A DNA stretch of 64,000 bases from Zeus faber (lineage: Eukaryota > Chordata > Actinopteri > Zeiformes > Zeidae), in assembly GCA_960531495.1 (NCBI GenBank), contig OY482866.1, positions 11,555,189-11,619,188 on the forward strand, in the 5' to 3' direction. The notes beneath the pieces are model-generated. The model saw only the letters and a list, made by a program, of their open reading frames with translations, did not search any database and was not told where the DNA came from. Made by a program: the position numbers and the translations under genes. Every line of letters begins with the position of its first letter. Position 1 is the first letter of the stretch. Positions 18,097-61,695 of this stretch are shown here, in pieces.

Positions 18097-18102
18097 TTTA
18101 TT
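18097..18102 (-). terminator. Candidate poly(A) signal of the unknown five-exon gene
   Basis: AATAAA read on the minus strand (TTTATT on the plus strand), 112 bases after the TGA at 18214-18216. This spacing suits a short 3' UTR and independently supports the gene model. Confidence 0.6.
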
Positions 18103-18213: not shown

Positions 18214-18279
18214 TCACTGAGCAGGTAGGCAGCTATGCTTCTTCACGCACGGACGCTTCTTGGGCTGAGACCGCTGCAA

Positions 18280-18319
<40 letters not shown>

Positions 18320-21300
18320 GGTCCATAACCGTGACCGAATGAACTACAGCCTCATGCATGTACCAACCCAACCCCCGGTTTACTTTGGTGGTGTAGGAGG
18401 TCTGGTATTCGGAGAGCAGCGTCTTCCCGCTGGGTACACGGTAGTAGAGCTTGGGCTTGCAGTGGGTCTTGTGCAGGTTGCGACCCCGTGGGAAACGGAT
18501 CGGGGTGGACGGGATGCCGAAGTTATCGGTGTATTCGGAATGCCAGGGGAGGCTGTGGCGGTGGGGGGCAAAGGGAAGTTGTCATGGTGTGGTTTACTTG
18601 TAGACTACATGGCAAAAAGTATGTGGACACCCGATGTGCTTGTTGAACATTCAATTTCAAAACTATGGGTATAAATAGAGGTATGTGTCGTGTGTGTGTT
18701 TCGTGTCCACCTGTGAGTGCACGGTACGTCTGGTTTATAAGGTAGGTATTATATCGTAGCACCTCCAAGCAGCTGAAAAGGCCCCGAGAATCCGGAAGCC
18801 CGCGGAGCAACACCCACATCCGACCCCTGAGGAGCATAAACCCAGTCCCAGAGAGCGTGAGGAGACCCTGCACCCCCCCGAAGCGCAACCGCACAATCCA
18901 CCCCCACATGCAGGCACAAGACGCAGACGCAGGACCTGGGCCACAGACGCCAGGTCCCGTAGCAGAGTGCGCTTGGCGCAGGGCACCCGATGCAGACTGT
19001 GACGTCAGTGCAGTCTGCTTTCCAATTCATCCCAAAGGTGTTTAACGGGGTTCAGGTCTGTGCTCTGTGCAGGCCAGTCAGGTTCTTCCACCAGAGTCTG
19101 TAAACCGTTTCCTCATGGACCTCGCTTTGTGCACAGGGGCACTGTCCTGCTGAAACCGAAAAGGTCCCGCCCCACACTTGTCAGAAAGGTGGAAGTGCAC
19201 CATTGTCTTGCATGTCATTGTGTGCTATGTAGGGTTAAAAATTTCCCTTCACTGGAATTGGGGGGCCTAGCCCAAACCATGAAAAACAGCCCCAGACCAT
19301 TATTCCTGCTACACCAAACTTTTACAGTTGGTGCCATGCGTTTTGACCTGTCTCTAAACCCAGACAGGTCCATCAGACGCCCGATGAAGTGTGATTAATC
19401 ACTGCAGAGAACGCGCTTCCGCTGCTCTCTCTCACAAGTACAATAGACAATGAATTATATTAAATAATTATAGAAGCCAGAATCGCGATTGTGGCGCCGC
19501 CCCTTGCGGCCGCCTGCGCGAGCACCGCGTGTCGATTACGCACATTTGAGAATTTTTCGTATTTTTGGAGCTTATAGAGCTTATTGTGCGTAATCACCGG
19601 GTGTCATGACATTTCACTGCATGTATGTACGACCGTATGTGTGTGTATGTGACAAATAATCTCTTGAACTTGAACTTGAACTTGGTGGCGTGATTTACAC
19701 TGCCCCAGCTGATGCTTGGCGTTGTGCATGGTGATCGTAAGGCTGTTATTGTCAGTGCAAGCGGGCCGTGTGGCTCATGGCGCACGCACTACCGAGAACA
19801 AGCATATACACAGATCAGCCACAACATTAAAACCACCACTCATAACCACTCATATTGTGTAGATCCCCCTCGTGCCACCAAAACAGCTTTGTGGCACGTG
19901 ATTCAGAATCACGTTCGCGCTCACTCACTGAATCACCGATTCGTTGGCAGGGGATACATGCAGAAGTGAATGAATGAGCACCTCCGCCCCCCCCCCCTCC
20001 GAAAAAAAATTCGAAATTGTTTGCGGACGACACTATCACGGTAGAAGCCCTTTATTCTAGAATATCGCACTTAAATTGCTAAGATACCGGGGATGGACGT
20101 GAAAGTAATTTTATTATTTATTTATTTATTAATTGCATGGAGGATTTGGACATGGGGTTCCCGCGCGATGCGATGGTGGCGGCTCCACGTTATTTCTTGT
20201 ATAAATTATATATAGTTAGACAGTAAATAATTTAGCTTAATACATTTTATTGCAGATAAATCTGTGAATCCGTTGTGCTTTACTTCCGTGATGTTGCGGC
20301 TTTTGCATTTGCTTTCTGTTAATGTGGTTGTTTTTCCAAATTTGCAATGTGTTTCGTTATGCAGTTCGCGTGACGTGTGGATTTGCAGCGCGTTTTCTAA
20401 ATGCTGCGCATGTGTTTTATAGAATGGTGGAGATGTTTTCTTAATTTGCTTGTGTTTTGACTTTGCACGTCTTGAGCTGCAGTGGGTTGAGCTCTCAGGG
20501 GCCACCGTATCGTATGAAGAAGTCATGAGTTACTACAATATTCCAGATCTTTGGACAGAGGCGGAGGCGGCACCATCTCCTTCCATGAATTCAACGCCAT
20601 CTGGTTATTTTTGTGGTCACGCAGGGATGGACGGTACAGATCGTACCTGCGTACCTCTTCGCAATAAACGACACTCCGGCTGCGGCGACTAAAAACGAGG
20701 CTTTTAAGGCTTGTGTGCAGCTGCTCGGCATAGAAAACCCAGCTCATGAAGCTCACAACCAACAGTTCTTGTGCCGATGTTGCTTCCGGGGACAGACCAT
20801 TTTTTTTTTTTTTTTTTTTTGTCAGCAATCGGCGATCCCGTTCTGTGAGCTCGTGTGACCGCTTGGTGGTTGAGCCGCTGCCGTTCCTAGACGTTTCCGC
20901 TCCACGGTAACAGAACTTAAGAGTTGACCGGTGCAGGCCTAGCAGGGTGGACATCTGACGAACTGACTTATCGGAAACCGCGGCTTCTATGACGGCGCCA
21001 CGTTGAGTGACCGAGCTCTTCAGTACGACCCCTTCGGCTGCAAATGTTTGTCTGAGGAGATTGCATGGCTGTATGCTTGGTCTTACGGACCTGTTAGTCA
21101 TGGGTGTGGCTGAAGTTGCAAAACCCATTCATAAGAAGGGGTGTCCACATACCCTTGGTTATTAATGTATAAGGGAGTGAATAACGTAGACATAGTGTTC
21201 AAGGCCGGAAGAAAACTAAATCAAACATAAGTGTCCCACGAAAGACAAGAGTAGTTTTGTTTTTCTTTACTTTTTGTCATTGCGTGCATGTTTTACCACT

Positions 21301-22525
21301 TGTGCTGCTTGGGTGGAGGCTTGGGGAAGCTTGTGTCTGTCAGTCTGCTGGATGGAGCCGTTCTCTTCTGCAGGAGGGCTGTGTCCTCAAGCTGGCTTTC
21401 TAACACACACACACACACACACACACACACCGCTCCTTTATTACCATGAGAATTCCCTTTTTTTCCCCTCTGGTCATTTAGTCAAGTCTAATAATTGAAC
21501 CTAACCACTTAAAATGTACACGGTTATACTGACAAACGCTGTGTTTCAAGATTCAAGATTCAAGATTTTTATTTGTCACATACATATACATACTTCCATA
21601 CATATATGCAGTGAAATGTAATGCAACGCACCCGGTGATAGCACACAATAAGTCCTAGGAAAAAGTACAAAAATAAAAGAAAAGAAAAAGTAGAAAATTC
21701 CTTTCTAATAGACCGACTAACTGACTCCTAAAACGTAATACAGTAAGTGGAATACTTATAGAATAAGATAAAAATATATATAGAATAAAATACAATAAAA
21801 AATAAATTGAAATAAAATGGAATAGGTTGAAGGAATATGCCTATGATGTACACATATACATATACAGATATGTGCATTTAAAGTGGCATGTGAATTGAAT
21901 TGTGTGATATTGTGTGATACTATAACTGCGCTCCAAACGGACGCCCAGACTCTTGGAAACTTTACCATTTTGATCTTTGACCTTCTGTTCCTTCTTCGCC
22001 TGCTGAGGCGAGGAGGAGGATGGCGGGCGGAGATGCAGCCTGGACGATGGCTGGGAGGGGTTGGCGGAGGAAGGGTATTGTTTGCCACCTGTGGACAGCA
22101 GGGAGACCTAAAACCATATATATGTTTTTTATTTTTAGTAGACTTTTGGCTATCTAAACACGACACAAAACTTATACTGAAGCAAAGTGTGTTGTGTTTC
22201 ACCTGTGGAAAGGTCGACGACCCATAGATATTGTTCGACGTGTTGTAGGTGTATCTAAGAAATCTGCTCGGGTTATTAGCGTCAGTCTTAAACAAAATAA
22301 AAAGAGACAAAATTAAATGTTACTCAAATGTCTCTGCTTTTAAACAGTGTAAATTGTACAGATATGTCGAGTTATCTCTCAGTGCATCTCTTTTACCTTG
22401 GGTGTGGACACGTACGCTGGTGGGGTTTTACTTTTCAGAATGGTATCCCCCTGGCCAGTCAGTAGGGGGCGCACCTCAGCCCGGTAGTGAAACTGGTAGG
22501 TGGTGAGGAAGCGGTCTGGAGCCAT
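18214..22525 (-). CDS. Unrecognised five-exon protein of about 200 residues
   Basis: I assembled this from exons at 22397-22525 (43 codons), 21966-22107, 21297-21399, 18384-18552 and 18214-18273. Every intron starts GT and ends AG, and the phases match (0, 1, 2, 0). The ATG at 22525 has an in-frame TAG 12 bases upstream. The protein opens MAPDRFLTTYQFHYRAEV. It then has a Ser/Pro/Lys-rich middle, a block with LPWHSEYTDNFG, RFPRGRNLHKTHCKPKLYY and SEYQTSYTTK, and a basic tail RSQPKKRPCVKKHSCLPAQ. There is no signal peptide, membrane span or known domain. Short aromatic motifs (TTYQ, SEYTDNF, SEYQTSY) recall small axonemal or sperm microtubule proteins, but that is only a resemblance. Exon 3 could start further in; 21399 was chosen because it keeps the phase. 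A poly(A) signal follows at 18097. It converges tail-to-tail with paip2b. Confidence 0.68.
18280..18317. repeat. AC dinucleotide microsatellite
   Basis: About 19 AC units lie immediately upstream of the last-exon acceptor of the unknown gene. On the minus strand this reads (GT)n next to CTTGCAG. Confidence 0.9.
18690..19010 (-). mobile_element. GC-rich 3'-tail fragment of the L1-type LINE
   Basis: It shares extended wording with the tails at 27940-28060 and 36920-37150: AGCACCTCCAAGCAG, then GGAGCAACACCCAC, and later CATGCAGGCACAAGACGCAG. It lacks any reverse-transcriptase part here. Confidence 0.7.
19430..19690 (+). repeat. Dispersed repeat family, full-length-like copy
   Basis: It starts near ACAAGTACAATAGACAATGAA and has a CpG-rich core near 19489-19540 (CGCCTGCGCGAGCACCGCG). 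It continues through ATTGTGCGTAATCACCGGGT and CATTTCACTGCATGTATGTA and ends in a CTTGAA tandem tail. The tail suggests a non-LTR (LINE or SINE) 3' end. Other copies are at 39055-39215, 42421-42518 (interrupted), 53550-53695 and 58523-58745. Confidence 0.8.
20210..20510. repeat. Unassigned dispersed repeat B
   Basis: It shares ordered blocks with 24416-24590: ATTTTATTGCAGATAAATC, CACTTCNGTGATG / CACTTCTGTAATG, GTTGAGCTCTNNGGNCCACCGTA. Two copies in one window at this similarity indicate a dispersed family. I cannot name it. Confidence 0.6.
21402..21431. repeat. AC microsatellite abutting a splice acceptor
   Basis: About 14 AC units. On the minus strand it is a (GT)n tract ending directly in the TTAG acceptor used for exon 3 of the unknown gene. 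It replaces the normal pyrimidine tract, which makes that acceptor the least certain junction of the model. Confidence 0.85.
21546..21790 (+). repeat. Dispersed repeat family, subfamily 2
   Basis: It starts with TTCAAGATTCAAGATT and shares the TTTGTCACATACATATACAT and ATATATGCAGTGAAATG blocks with the main family. It then has its own 3' half (GCAACGCACCCGGTGATAGCA, GACCGACTAACTGACTCCTA). The copy at 62539-62765 has the same second half. It lies in an intron of the unknown gene. Confidence 0.8.
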
Positions 22526-24115
22526 GGGGCCAGACGCCTACAGAGAAGATAAGGCAGTCGGGTGGGGTCACTCATGGGGAGGTGGGGCCAGTCGATGATT
22601 TGAAGTCAATAAGCAAGACAATTCGCAGCGCAATATCCAACAACTCAACACATACTGGTGAAGTTGTAAAAGAGTGCGAGCCCTGTGTGCATGTGTGTTA
22701 ATGTATGTGCAGGGCTATGCGGGGAATTCCCCTGGTTTCCATGACTAATGGAAACACAAAGTGGAATATTTAGTAAGCTCCTGGTTGAGACGTTTAATGT
22801 TATAAGTGATCGCACATCCGTCTGTATTGAGCCAGTTGATTTGATATATTTGGTGATAACGTGGCTTAAATTTCACTGCGCTACTTCTCCAAGAATTTGG
22901 CAATCATAATGATACGATTTGCAAAAGGTGTGTGGTGATGCAGGATACTTTACTACAATTTCACAATTCCTGGTGAAATTGTGCAGTACGCTGGCCGTGC
23001 ATGTGTATGACAATGTATGTTGTAGATATGTGCCTTCATCTTGTTGGCCGTACACTGACGGCGCCACCTCCAAACGCTCAGCTGCACGGGACTGGATCAG
23101 GGCTGGTTCCAGCAAAGCTCAGCTTTATAGGAAGAGAATTGTGACATCACGATGATGTCACATGCTGATGGCCGCGGGGCTACAGGGGGAATTCCGTGAA
23201 TGTGTTTATCCATGTTTCCATGACGAATGGGCTTGCGCTGACCCCTAGATTCTCAGTCTCACTCTTATTTTGTCATAGGAAAAGGGACTGACCCCACCCA
23301 ATTGCGGAGTGGCAGAGACCAGAGGCCACAGGCTTCTGCCCCCTCATTACCTGAGGCGGCAGAGGCCCGCGGAGCTGGAGCCGGAACATCAAGACCACGC
23401 CGCTGCCATTGAAGGCAGGTCCTGAACCCTTGGAAAGGAAAAAAAAACAAAAAAAACAGGAGTGGGGACAGCTAAATGGCTGTCCTGTCTCTTCAAAGTA
23501 TTCCTTTCTCCTCATGTTTACGGCCGAAAAGCGCACGTTTACAGTGGAAGAACATAGGTAAACTCACCCATGCACGATGAATCTGTGGATCCTCTAGACT
23601 GTGACCAGTGGCTACGTCATCCAATTCACCCGTCTTCCACCCATTTACAGGGGAAAAGGTGAGTCCGTAGTCGTGGACAATCATATGGAGGTTCTCGCTA
23701 AATTTCAGACGTTGACCACACGTCAATTGGCGAGATTTTTTCGCCCAAACGACTAATTTGTGAAGCTATATCTGAAGGATGCCTATTTCCACAACTACTG
23801 TTCATCCACCTCTGTTAGCAAATATCAAATATCTGTGCTTTGTCTTCCAGGGGAAAGCCTCACACTCCCTTTCGGGACTGCCTGCTCTGTCCCAGTCAGG
23901 CGGCCAGTTTAACCCTTTCCCACCTGAAAAGTCTTGGCTCTGCTATCAACATGGAGAAAAGTGTATTAACCCCGAGCCACCGCAACCCCTTTTTAGGCAT
24001 CGGGCGTGACTCTGTTATGAAGATACCCCGTCTCTCTTCAGCCAGAGTTCGGGCCATCAAGTTATGCGTCAGGATAGGAGCCCTGTCATGGCATGTTCCA
24101 TCTGCTCCTGACTAA
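22526..24115. other. Non-coding stretch upstream of the unknown gene
   Basis: No exon is recognised. An acceptor-like CTTCTCTGTAG ends 12 bases before the start codon of the unknown gene, so a 5' untranslated exon may lie in this region. Two loosely similar segments (about 22660-22770 and 22970-23230) share GTGCATGTGT, AATGTATGT and GGGGAATTCC wording and may be an old duplication. Confidence 0.4.
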
Positions 24116-42518: not shown

Positions 42519-44086
42519 CAGTGGCGCAAAAAAGTATTTAGTCAGCCACCAATTGTGCAAGTTCTCCCACTTAAAAAGATGAGAGAGGCCTGTAATTTTC
42601 ATCATAGGTACACTTCGACTATGAGAGACAGAATGGGGGGAAAGAATCCAGGAAATCACATTGTAGGATTTTTAATGAATTAATTGGTAAATTCCTCGGT
42701 AAAATAAGTATTTGGTCACCTACAAAGAAGCAAGATTTCTGGCTTTCACAGACCTGGAACTTTTTCTTTAAGAGGCTCCTCTGTCCTCCACTCGTTACCT
42801 GTATTAATGGCACCTGTTTGAACTCGTTATCAGTATAAAAGACACCTGTCCACAACCTCAAACAGTCACACGCCAAACTCCACTATGGCCAAAGAGCTGT
42901 CAAAGGACACCAGAAACAAAATTGTAGACCTGCACCAGGCTGGGAAGACTGAATCTGCAATAGGTAAGCAGCTTGTTGTGAAGAAATCAACTGTTGGGAA
43001 CAATTATTAGAAAATGTAAGACATACAAGACCACTGATAATCTCCCTCGATCTGGGGCTCCACGCAAGATCTCACCCCGTGAGGTCAAAATGATCACAAG
43101 AACGGTGAGCAAACATCCCAGAACCACACGGGGGGACCTAGTGAATGACCTGCAGAGAGCTGGGACCAAAGTAACAAAGGCTACCATCAGTAACACATTA
43201 CGCCGCCAGGGACTCAAATCCTGCAGTGCCAGACGTGTCCCCCTGCTTAAGCCAGTACATGTCCAGGCCCGTCTGAAGTTTGCTAGAGAGCATTTGGATG
43301 ATCCAGAAGAGGATTGGGAGAATGTCAGATGAAACCAAAATATAACTTTTTGGTAAAAACTCAACTTGTCGTGTTTGGAGGAGAAAGAAAGCTGAGTTGC
43401 ATCCAAAGAACACCATACCTACTGTGAAGCATGGGGGTGGAAACATCATGCTTTGGGGCTGTTTTTCTGCAAAGGGACCAGGACGACTGATCCGTGTAAA
43501 GGAAAGAATGAATGGGGCCATGTATCGTGAGATTTTGAGTGAAAACCTACCATCAGCAAGGGCATTGAAGATGAAACGTGGCTGGGTCTTTCAGCATGAC
43601 AATGATCCCAAACACATCGCCCGGGCAACGAAGGAGTGGCTTTGTAAGAAGCATTTCAAGGTCCTGGAGTGGCCTAGCCAGTCTCCAGATCTCAACCCCA
43701 TAGAAAATCTTTGGAGGGAGTTGAAAGTCTGTGTTGCCCAGCGACAACCCCAAAACATCACTGCTCTAGAGGAGATCTGCATGGAGGAATGGGCCAAAAT
43801 ACCAGCAACAGAATGTGAAAACCTTGTGAAGACTTACAGAAAACGTTTGGCCTCTATCATTGCAAACAAAGGGTATATAACAAAGTATTGAGATTAACTT
43901 TTGTTATTGACCAAATACTTATTTTCCACCATAATTTGCAAATAAATTCTTTAAAATCAGACTGATTTTCTGGATTTTGTCTCATAGTTGAAGTATACCT
44001 ATGATGAAAATAACAGGCCTCTCATCTTTTTAAGTGGGAGAACTTGCACAATTGGTGGCTGACTAAATACTTTTTTGCCCCACTAG
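42519..44086 (+). mobile_element. Tc1-like DNA transposon, nearly complete, transposase frameshifted
   Basis: Long terminal inverted repeats (about 130-145 bases) are almost identical at both ends (CAAAAAAGTATTTAGTCAGC and its complement). TA lies on each side (42517-42518 and 44087-44088). The transposase starts at 42885 (MAKELSKDTRNKIVDLHQAG) and stops near 43009 after a shift. It continues in another frame at 42994-43332 and again at 43397-43891 ([44 protein letters not shown]). The first catalytic region (WSDET in relatives) is damaged near 43330, probably by an 8-base loss between GTCA repeats. It is not self-mobile, but its ends look usable in trans. A close relative is known from many fish and from lampreys. 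Confidence 0.95.
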
Positions 44087-48111: not shown

Positions 48112-48936
48112 CTACTTCCAGCGAATCTGTGTATTCGCTGGTGACGCGGGATCCAGCGTGCCGGTCCCGCCTTGCTGCACCGAACCAGCAGCCTGGCTGG
48201 TGGAGGGCATGGGGGCCCAAGCTCGCTGGCCCTCCCGCTGGACAAACTCCAACGGGAGGGCTGCCAGAGCAGCCTCGTGCATCTGGAGCAGATTCTCATA
48301 GCAGCTTATCACACCGGCCTCCTGGTTTCTGGCTGTGGGAAACGATTGGCTCCTCACAGGAGCGAACACAGGCATGGCGGAGGCCCGTGCCAGAGTGCCG
48401 CGAACTGTGCAAGGCGCCTCGTGGGTTGCGGTAGCGGCGGCATCACGAGAACCAGTCAACTGCTGCTGGTGCATTGTGTTCAGCTTCCGAGCCTCCTCGA
48501 AGTAGGGCCTCTTCTGCTGCTCGCTCAATCCGCTCCACATGACGCCGAGCCGGACGCTGATCTCCCTGATCGTGGCCTGGGGGTCGGCTCTGGAAAGGAG
48601 CCCTCTGTGGACGCGGGCCCACAGCATGAAGGCATTCATCGGCTTCTTAATCTTACCCTTCGTGTTGCGTGGCGCCTCTGCCGAGGGGGAGAGGCCAAGC
48701 TCCGCAGCGTGACCTGGGGCTTCCGGGGTGGGGGGCCATGGGACTGGTTGTGTGACAGGACCGGCATGCTGGGCCACTGGTCTCTGGAACACTGTGACTC
48801 TCGTCCTCTTTTTGGGCGGACTCTGCTCTCCAGCTTCCAGCAAACTGCGCTCCGGTGAACCGCACAAATCGCCGGTTCTCCGGTTTTCGCTCCTTGAATG
48901 CGCACTGTGAGACCTGGATGCGCGGTGCCCCTCCAT
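48112..48936 (-). CDS. sox30: Intronless Sox-type HMG-box protein, SOX30-like
   Basis: One open frame of 274 codons, ATG at 48936 and TAG at 48112-48114. Residues about 96-164 form an HMG box: IKKPMNAFMLWARVHR, EISVRLGVMWSGLSEQQKRP, YFEEARKL. WAR[IV]HR and ISV[QR]LG are features I associate with SOX30; other Sox proteins usually have ISKRLG at the second site. The N-terminus (1-90) is Arg/Ser-rich with a basic PPKKRTR stretch that could be a nuclear signal. The C-terminus is Ala/Gln/Pro-rich with no domain I know. Mammalian SOX30 is over 700 residues and multi-exon, so this is short. The frame is intact and GC-richer than its surroundings. No poly(A) tail or flanking repeat of a retrocopy is visible. 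In the family the protein is a nuclear DNA-binding regulator active in testis. SOX30 orthology is moderately sure; expression is unknown. Confidence 0.78.
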   Translation of the reverse strand: MEGHRASRSHSAHSRSENRRTGDLCGSPERSLLEAGEQSPPKKRTRVTVFQRPVAQHAGPVTQPVPWPPTPEAPGHAAELGLSPSAEAPRNTKGKIKKPMNAFMLWARVHRGLLSRADPQATIREISVRLGVMWSGLSEQQKRPYFEEARKLNTMHQQQLTGSRDAAATATHEAPCTVRGTLARASAMPVFAPVRSQSFPTARNQEAGVISCYENLLQMHEAALAALPLEFVQREGQRAWAPMPSTSQAAGSVQQGGTGTLDPASPANTQIRWK

Positions 48937-49239
48937 GTGCTGGGTTTTCTAGGCCTGGTTAGGTTTCAGAACAGCGTCCTGTGACAGTACAAAGCAGACA
49001 TCACAAAACTGAAACAAGTTTTCTGTCCTAAAATTCCGTCTCTGTACTCTAAACCTCTTAACAATCAAAGCATTTATTTGAGATTATAGTACAGATTGTC
49101 GGCTTGGATTTGAGGCTGTTGACATGAACATTGGTTTCCATAACTGTGAAATAAATTGTCCCCTTTTCCAGATAACCAAAAGTATTTGGATGGATCATGA
49201 TTATTTTGAAATTGGGCACTCTTTTTTATATTTGGCTGG
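48937..49239. other. 5' flank of the HMG-box gene
   Basis: This is sequence immediately upstream of the SOX30-like start. No TATA box or CpG island is evident, and no further exon of the gene is seen. Confidence 0.4.

Positions 49240-57679: not shown

Positions 57680-61695
<4,016 letters not shown>

Follow-up and report, generated by a model that had tools for sequence, protein, structure and literature searches.

Mn motifs are described as short helices that sit at the tubulin intradimer interface inside microtubules, and the proteins that carry them as stabilising microtubules (PMC9564825, PMC12228683). The minimal Mn unit, [TS][TS]x4[YF], is given as a short helix touching the microtubule lumen, together with a divergent SNYG unit, [ST]Nxx[ILVY]G (PMC10973386). 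SAXO proteins are stated to use about 40 amino acids (aa) per 8 nm, and MDM1, renamed SAXO6, carries Mn motifs at residues 9-21, 189-201, 232-244 and 306-318 (PMC13087473). MDM1 has also been called "duplication-resistant", being linked to GRIP1, CAND1 and DYRK2, with its other ohnologs lost (PMC5033493). Here we describe a gene with Mn-like units on the minus strand of a 64,000-nucleotide (nt) stretch of the Zeus faber genome (contig OY482866.1, positions 11,555,189 to 11,619,188; hereafter the window, meaning the whole stretch), where its coding exons run from position 22525 down to 18214. It is very probably a genuine, uncharacterised coding gene of five or six exons, and our searches point to a single copy. 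Judged from its sequence, the product, which is small, basic and probably disordered, has an even chance of working like an Mn-motif microtubule inner protein in the microtubule lumen.

Six AG/GT-bounded segments on the minus strand join into a single open frame of 687 nt and 228 aa, with phases 0, 0, 1, 2, 0 (slashes within sequences mark splice junctions):

22397..22525, minus strand: exon 1, coding part (aa 1-43), with the ATG at 22525; open frame, donor AAG/GTAAAA at the 96.9th percentile
22203..22286, minus strand: exon 2, 84 nt, both of its junctions in phase 0; spliced frame open, donor at the 97.9th and acceptor at the 91.9th percentile, coding score -1.1 nats
21966..22107, minus strand: exon 3, rich in S, P and Q; spliced frame is the best coding frame, all three frames open
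21297..21399, minus strand: exon 4; spliced frame is the best coding frame
18384..18552, minus strand: exon 5, the block with SEYTDNF, KTHCKPKLYY and SEYQTSY; spliced frame best, 10.9 nats
18214..18273, minus strand: exon 6, which encodes the basic C-terminus and ends in the TGA stop; splice-joined open frame
18097..18102, minus strand: poly(A) signal AATAAA, 112 bases beyond the TGA

A preliminary description of this locus had proposed a minus-strand gene with the ATG at 22525, the TGA ending at 18214 and the poly(A) signal at the distance listed, all of which were borne out. Its five exons with phases 0, 1, 2, 0 had to be replaced by six phase-compatible GT-AG exons with the phases given above, as the 84-base exon at 22286-22203 had been overlooked. 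The proposed length of about 200 residues applies only if this exon is skipped, whereas the full chain gives 228 aa; since exon 2 has phase 0 on both sides, skipping keeps the frame and yields 200 aa. Exon 2 is the weakest of the six (G+C content, GC, of 0.452, the negative coding score and a TTTAAG acceptor), and may be constitutive, a cassette exon or no exon at all. The upstream stop that had also been reported is present as an in-frame TAG 15 bases 5' of the ATG, but it sits in an acceptor-like tract, ttctctgTAG/gcgtctggccccATGG, and is perhaps intronic, so that the ATG at 22525 is a likely, though unproven, start codon.

The chain has coding character. GC at codon positions 1, 2 and 3 was 0.498, 0.502 and 0.707, compared with 0.291-0.527 in the introns and 0.445 in the window. 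With a codon model, the spliced frame had the best coding log-odds in five of the six exons, the exception being exon 2, and a total of 41.4 nats; at least one alternative frame contained a stop in five of the six, exon 3 being open in all three. A simple gene-finder run at three intron penalties placed the region above all 100 dinucleotide shuffles at each (scores of 16.9, 9.8 and 7.2 versus shuffle maxima of 4.5, 1.0 and 1.2), the best chains there having five, three and one exons. When the window was cut into 52 tiles of equal size, at least 14 of them outscored the gene region at the middle penalty, and the gene-finder is therefore not specific. A first version of it, not used as support, chained 44 and 48 segments over the whole strands; its minus chain recovered exons 3 and 4 with their precise boundaries, together with the exon 1 donor and the exon 5 acceptor, missed exons 2 and 6, and began exon 1 12 bases upstream, at the TAG acceptor.

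Splice sites were moderate, with donors between the 86th and 98th percentile of all GT and acceptors between the 76th and 96th of all AG. These sites, the weak exon 2, the higher-scoring tiles and transposon-like debris in intron 4 that falls below the Pfam cut-off would all fit a locus holding no functional gene, only open segments that chain by chance or a pseudogene in decay. We regard this as very unlikely, given one open chain that ends in a stop and a poly(A) signal, the raised third-position GC, the five exons whose spliced frame is best, and the fact that none of 100 shuffles did as well at any of the three penalties.

Searching the 803-Mb genome of the same species, we found that all six exons match themselves. 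The next match had an expect value (E) of 0.028 and three internal stops, and the other 13 listed were at E 1.68 or worse; among the best candidates, the only ones that this search scores, there is no credible second copy and no sign of a repeat family. Among solved-structure sequences neither the whole protein nor exons 5-6 had a match, and exons 1-2 had only two at chance level (adiponectin, E 0.22, and MCPv4, E 0.51). Matches in IMG/VR (17 and 20) and in GTDB contigs (94) were pattern stretches with no relative among them, these being viral and prokaryotic collections that carry no information on fish conservation. Thus the earlier proposal of an unrecognised coding gene is supported by the coding statistics, by the lack of a Pfam family (see below) and by the lack of a credible relative among solved structures. 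Single-sequence AlphaFold models of two exons were uninformative, with mean predicted local distance difference test (pLDDT) scores of 59.4 for exon 5 and 66.2 for exon 1 and no assigned secondary structure.

The case for an Mn-like mode of action comes from short aromatic units in the protein:

22484..22504, minus strand: Mn-like unit 1, TTYQFHY (aa 8-14), of the form [TS][TS]x4[YF]; top window of the six-frame open reading frames (ORFs) with the SAXO1 matrix described below
22221..22238, minus strand: SNNIYG (aa 60-65), a hexamer resembling the SNYG unit and of the form [ST]Nxx[ILVY]G, within the weak exon 2; shuffle P 0.013
18519..18539, minus strand: Mn-like unit 2, SEYTDNF (aa 158-164), of the MDM1 type [ST]EYxxx[FY]
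18393..18413, minus strand: Mn-like unit 3, SEYQTSY (aa 200-206), of the MDM1 type [ST]EYxxx[FY], 42 residues after unit 2

The MDM1-type form [ST]EYxxx[FY] thus occurs twice, which none of 50,000 shuffles of the protein reproduced (255 had one), and it matches nothing else in the window's six-frame ORFs, which total 63,223 residues. A wider form, [ST][ET]Yxxx[FY], also takes in TTYQFHY, and three or more such units were found in 1 of 50,000 shuffles; two unrelated matches to it, STYCITF and STYSILF, lie in intron 3. The distance between units 2 and 3 is close to the roughly 40 residues of one 8-nm step; unit 1 is 150 residues ahead of unit 2.

Comparison with SAXO units pointed in the same direction for parts of the protein. 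With a 16-residue matrix derived from bovine SAXO1 (PDB 8ou0_D) and its 12 Mn units, no six-frame window scored higher than TTYQFHY (12.67), and SEYQTSY reached 9.82 (9.39 in the six-frame ORF scan); shuffles as high as the best, second and third windows numbered 121, 26 and 79, and as high as the sum of the three 17, each out of 5,000. The matrix is blind to the SEY-type form, since SAXO1's own SEYTENY unit, when left out, scores merely 2.47. We also built a SAXO repeat-unit profile from bovine and fish SAXO, which themselves score 471.9 and 450.1. Without bias correction, exon 5 alone reached 8.8 bits (17 of 5,000 shuffles as high), in an alignment that spans the KP linker and the last unit; its best stretch scored 5.4 bits, with 60 shuffles as high.

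Several results weigh against an Mn-type function. Within the HMMER filters, no Pfam family matched the whole protein at E up to 10, or exon 5 and exons 1-2 searched as pieces. The minimal consensus [TS][TS]x4[YF] is not enriched (2 matches versus 0.88 expected, P 0.22), and one of its two matches, STGGKQY, falls in a low-complexity part. Because the MDM1 form was picked after the motifs had been seen, the shuffle figures are flattering and overstate the surprise. As for the SAXO1 matrix, the single best score was equalled by as many as 121 of the shuffles, the third-best window is low-complexity and holds no motif, SEYTDNF was not caught, and unrelated ORFs scored 10.91, 9.9 and 9.5, above the 9.39 of SEYQTSY. 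Once corrected for bias, the SAXO repeat profile gave the full protein -13.2 bits, a score that 1,906 of 2,000 shuffles equalled or exceeded; its best stretch scored 3.3 bits with 69 shuffles as high, and exons 1-2 reached 5.6 bits without the correction (91 of 5,000 shuffles). Finally, the strict X-box pattern had no match in the window, and the relaxed RFX pattern none close to the start.

The unenriched consensus, the negative full-protein profile and the absence of a family match would be expected if the gene is real and coding, the Mn-like motifs are coincidental and the function has nothing to do with microtubules, a reading that we consider possible, if somewhat doubtful. It sits poorly with two MDM1-type units at the tubulin-step spacing, which no shuffle matched in number, and with the alignment of exon 5 to a linker plus a unit. 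The preliminary description's hint at a microtubule protein of cilia or sperm therefore holds at the level of motifs (the [ST]EYxxx[FY] pair, the SAXO1 matrix and the exon 5 profile) but not at that of families, where Pfam, the SAXO profile and the minimal consensus were negative.

If the gene product does act in the Mn mode, each of its three aromatic units (aa 8-14, 158-164 and 200-206) would fold into a short helix lying against an alpha/beta-tubulin dimer on its luminal side. Units 2 and 3 would occupy neighbouring dimers of one protofilament, one 8-nm step apart, with the S/P-rich middle and the basic tail as linkers, so that the chain would run along the protofilament with disordered linkers between its contacts. 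From this arrangement we infer microtubule binding, a luminal position, and a protein that would staple and stabilise the microtubule wall in cilia or sperm tails.

Among known proteins with such motifs, SAXO1 and SAXO2 resemble the gene product in the TTYxxxY unit and, within exon 5, in the KP-containing linker ahead of the last unit; they differ in having ten or more units, where we count three. Membership of the SAXO1-2 family was ruled out by the failure of the family profile PF05217 to match and by the full-protein repeat profile; as a positive control, human SAXO1 scored 1094.8 bits with PF05217. SAXO1-2 matches above the cut-off exist elsewhere in this genome (C15, C22 at 9.43 Mb, and C3). 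The gene product is thus not a SAXO1-2 member, though its sequence may still allow an Mn-like working mode. MAP6D1 is alike by its published description: it is a small protein with two Mn motifs that acts through them, but it is brain-specific and has a conserved N-terminal domain (PMC12228683).

MDM1 shows a similar layout. In a human MDM1 sequence confirmed by Pfam at 498.3 bits, [ST]EYxxx[FY] starts at 9, 189, 232 and 306; both proteins therefore carry an N-terminal unit (at 9 there and, in the TTY form, at 8 here) and a pair of units 43 residues apart in MDM1 and 42 here. We also count as a likeness that MDM1/SAXO6 is described as disordered outside its motifs (PMC13087473). The differences are in size and unit number (a 553-position profile and four Mn motifs versus 228 aa and three Mn-like units) and in gene neighbourhood, which is published as GRIP1-CAND1-DYRK2 (PMC5033493) and not the paip2b/nagk one that we assign to this locus below. 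None of those three genes was noticed in the frames of the window read by eye, no dedicated search for them having been made. The PF15501 (MDM1/SAXO6) profile matched neither the whole protein nor its exon pieces, and BLASTP against MDM1 was not significant (best E 0.18).

With TEX26 and CIMIP6/C2orf73 the likeness is that both are listed among Mn-repeat proteins (PMC10973386). TEX26 was rejected as the identity of the gene: BLASTP against a presumed human sequence was not significant (best E 0.38), and RGxxxHK[ST]H, which can be picked out by eye in each of the two, stands in a different order with respect to CLPW. The PF15667 (CMIP6) profile did not match the protein either, CMIP6 being presumably the same as C2orf73.

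The gene could also be an orthologue of a mammalian Mn-type protein already known, such as MDM1/SAXO6, TEX26 or CIMIP6/C2orf73, that has diverged strongly, beyond the reach of profiles; this would overlap in mechanism with the reading of the gene as an Mn-motif protein and differ in ancestry. Searches of this genome for MDM1, CMIP6 (on C10) and the presumed human TEX26 found only sub-threshold matches elsewhere, which leaves their orthologues unaccounted for, and the MDM1-like layout also speaks for such descent. We nevertheless hold it to be unlikely, in view of the unmatched MDM1 and CMIP6 profiles, the non-significant alignments to TEX26 and MDM1, and the published MDM1 linkage with its other ohnologs lost. 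That the gene instead encodes an undescribed fish Mn-motif protein, distinct from SAXO1/2, MDM1, CIMIP6 and TEX26 and acting as an extra lumen staple in sperm tails or cilia that no mammalian protein recognisably matches, is a somewhat unlikely proposal. The sole MDM1-profile trace in this genome lies at C21:852062-852172 and is sub-threshold (E 0.997); one minus-strand frame in its flank resembles by eye what we take to be an MDM1 exon (GTHF...H...L..E), and no further MDM1 exon was recognised in the viewed parts of the flanking 20 kb. MDM1 in this genome may have diverged, been missed by the search or been lost.

If the Mn-type reading is right, a gene without a family would join the proteins that line ciliary microtubules, and disordered, motif-only members of this group would be seen to escape profile-based annotation. 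A lineage-restricted Mn protein would further make fish sperm a model for testing the role of accessory Mn proteins. Should the locus be merely an uncharacterised coding gene, the gain would be one of ordinary annotation.

Upstream of the gene, about 620 bases from the ATG, two CRE/ATF-like sites (CRE, cAMP response element) form a palindrome at 23142-23160, TGACATCA...TGATGTCA, followed by a TATA-like CTATAAA seen by eye. By its sequence this is perhaps a putative testis-type promoter; as short repeats in the upstream kilobase recur at 24 other places among those listed, we make no promoter claim. Downstream, the gene stands tail to tail with a neighbour that we take to be paip2b; the joined partial protein of this neighbour had no match in Pfam.

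Elsewhere in the window, a Tc1-like transposase extends over two frames of the plus strand at 42982-43885 (HTH_Tnp_Tc3_2, 83.2 bits, then DDE_3, 49.9 bits). Within intron 4 of the gene, a weak HTH_28 frame (20526-21128, minus strand; 14.6 bits, below the cut-off of 25) is probably DNA transposon debris. On the same strand as the gene, an ORF at 48115-48948 encodes a SOX-type high-mobility-group (HMG) box (Pfam HMG_box, 63.2 bits) and is presumably most like sox30, which we take to be a gonadal gene. Because of this HMG-box gene we considered C5orf52, which we believe to lie beside human SOX30, and did not use it. At 59726-60407 on the minus strand, exons that we presume to be nagk-like match the Pfam family BcrAD_BadFG at E 2.1e-5 and 24.6 bits, below the cut-off of 31.5.

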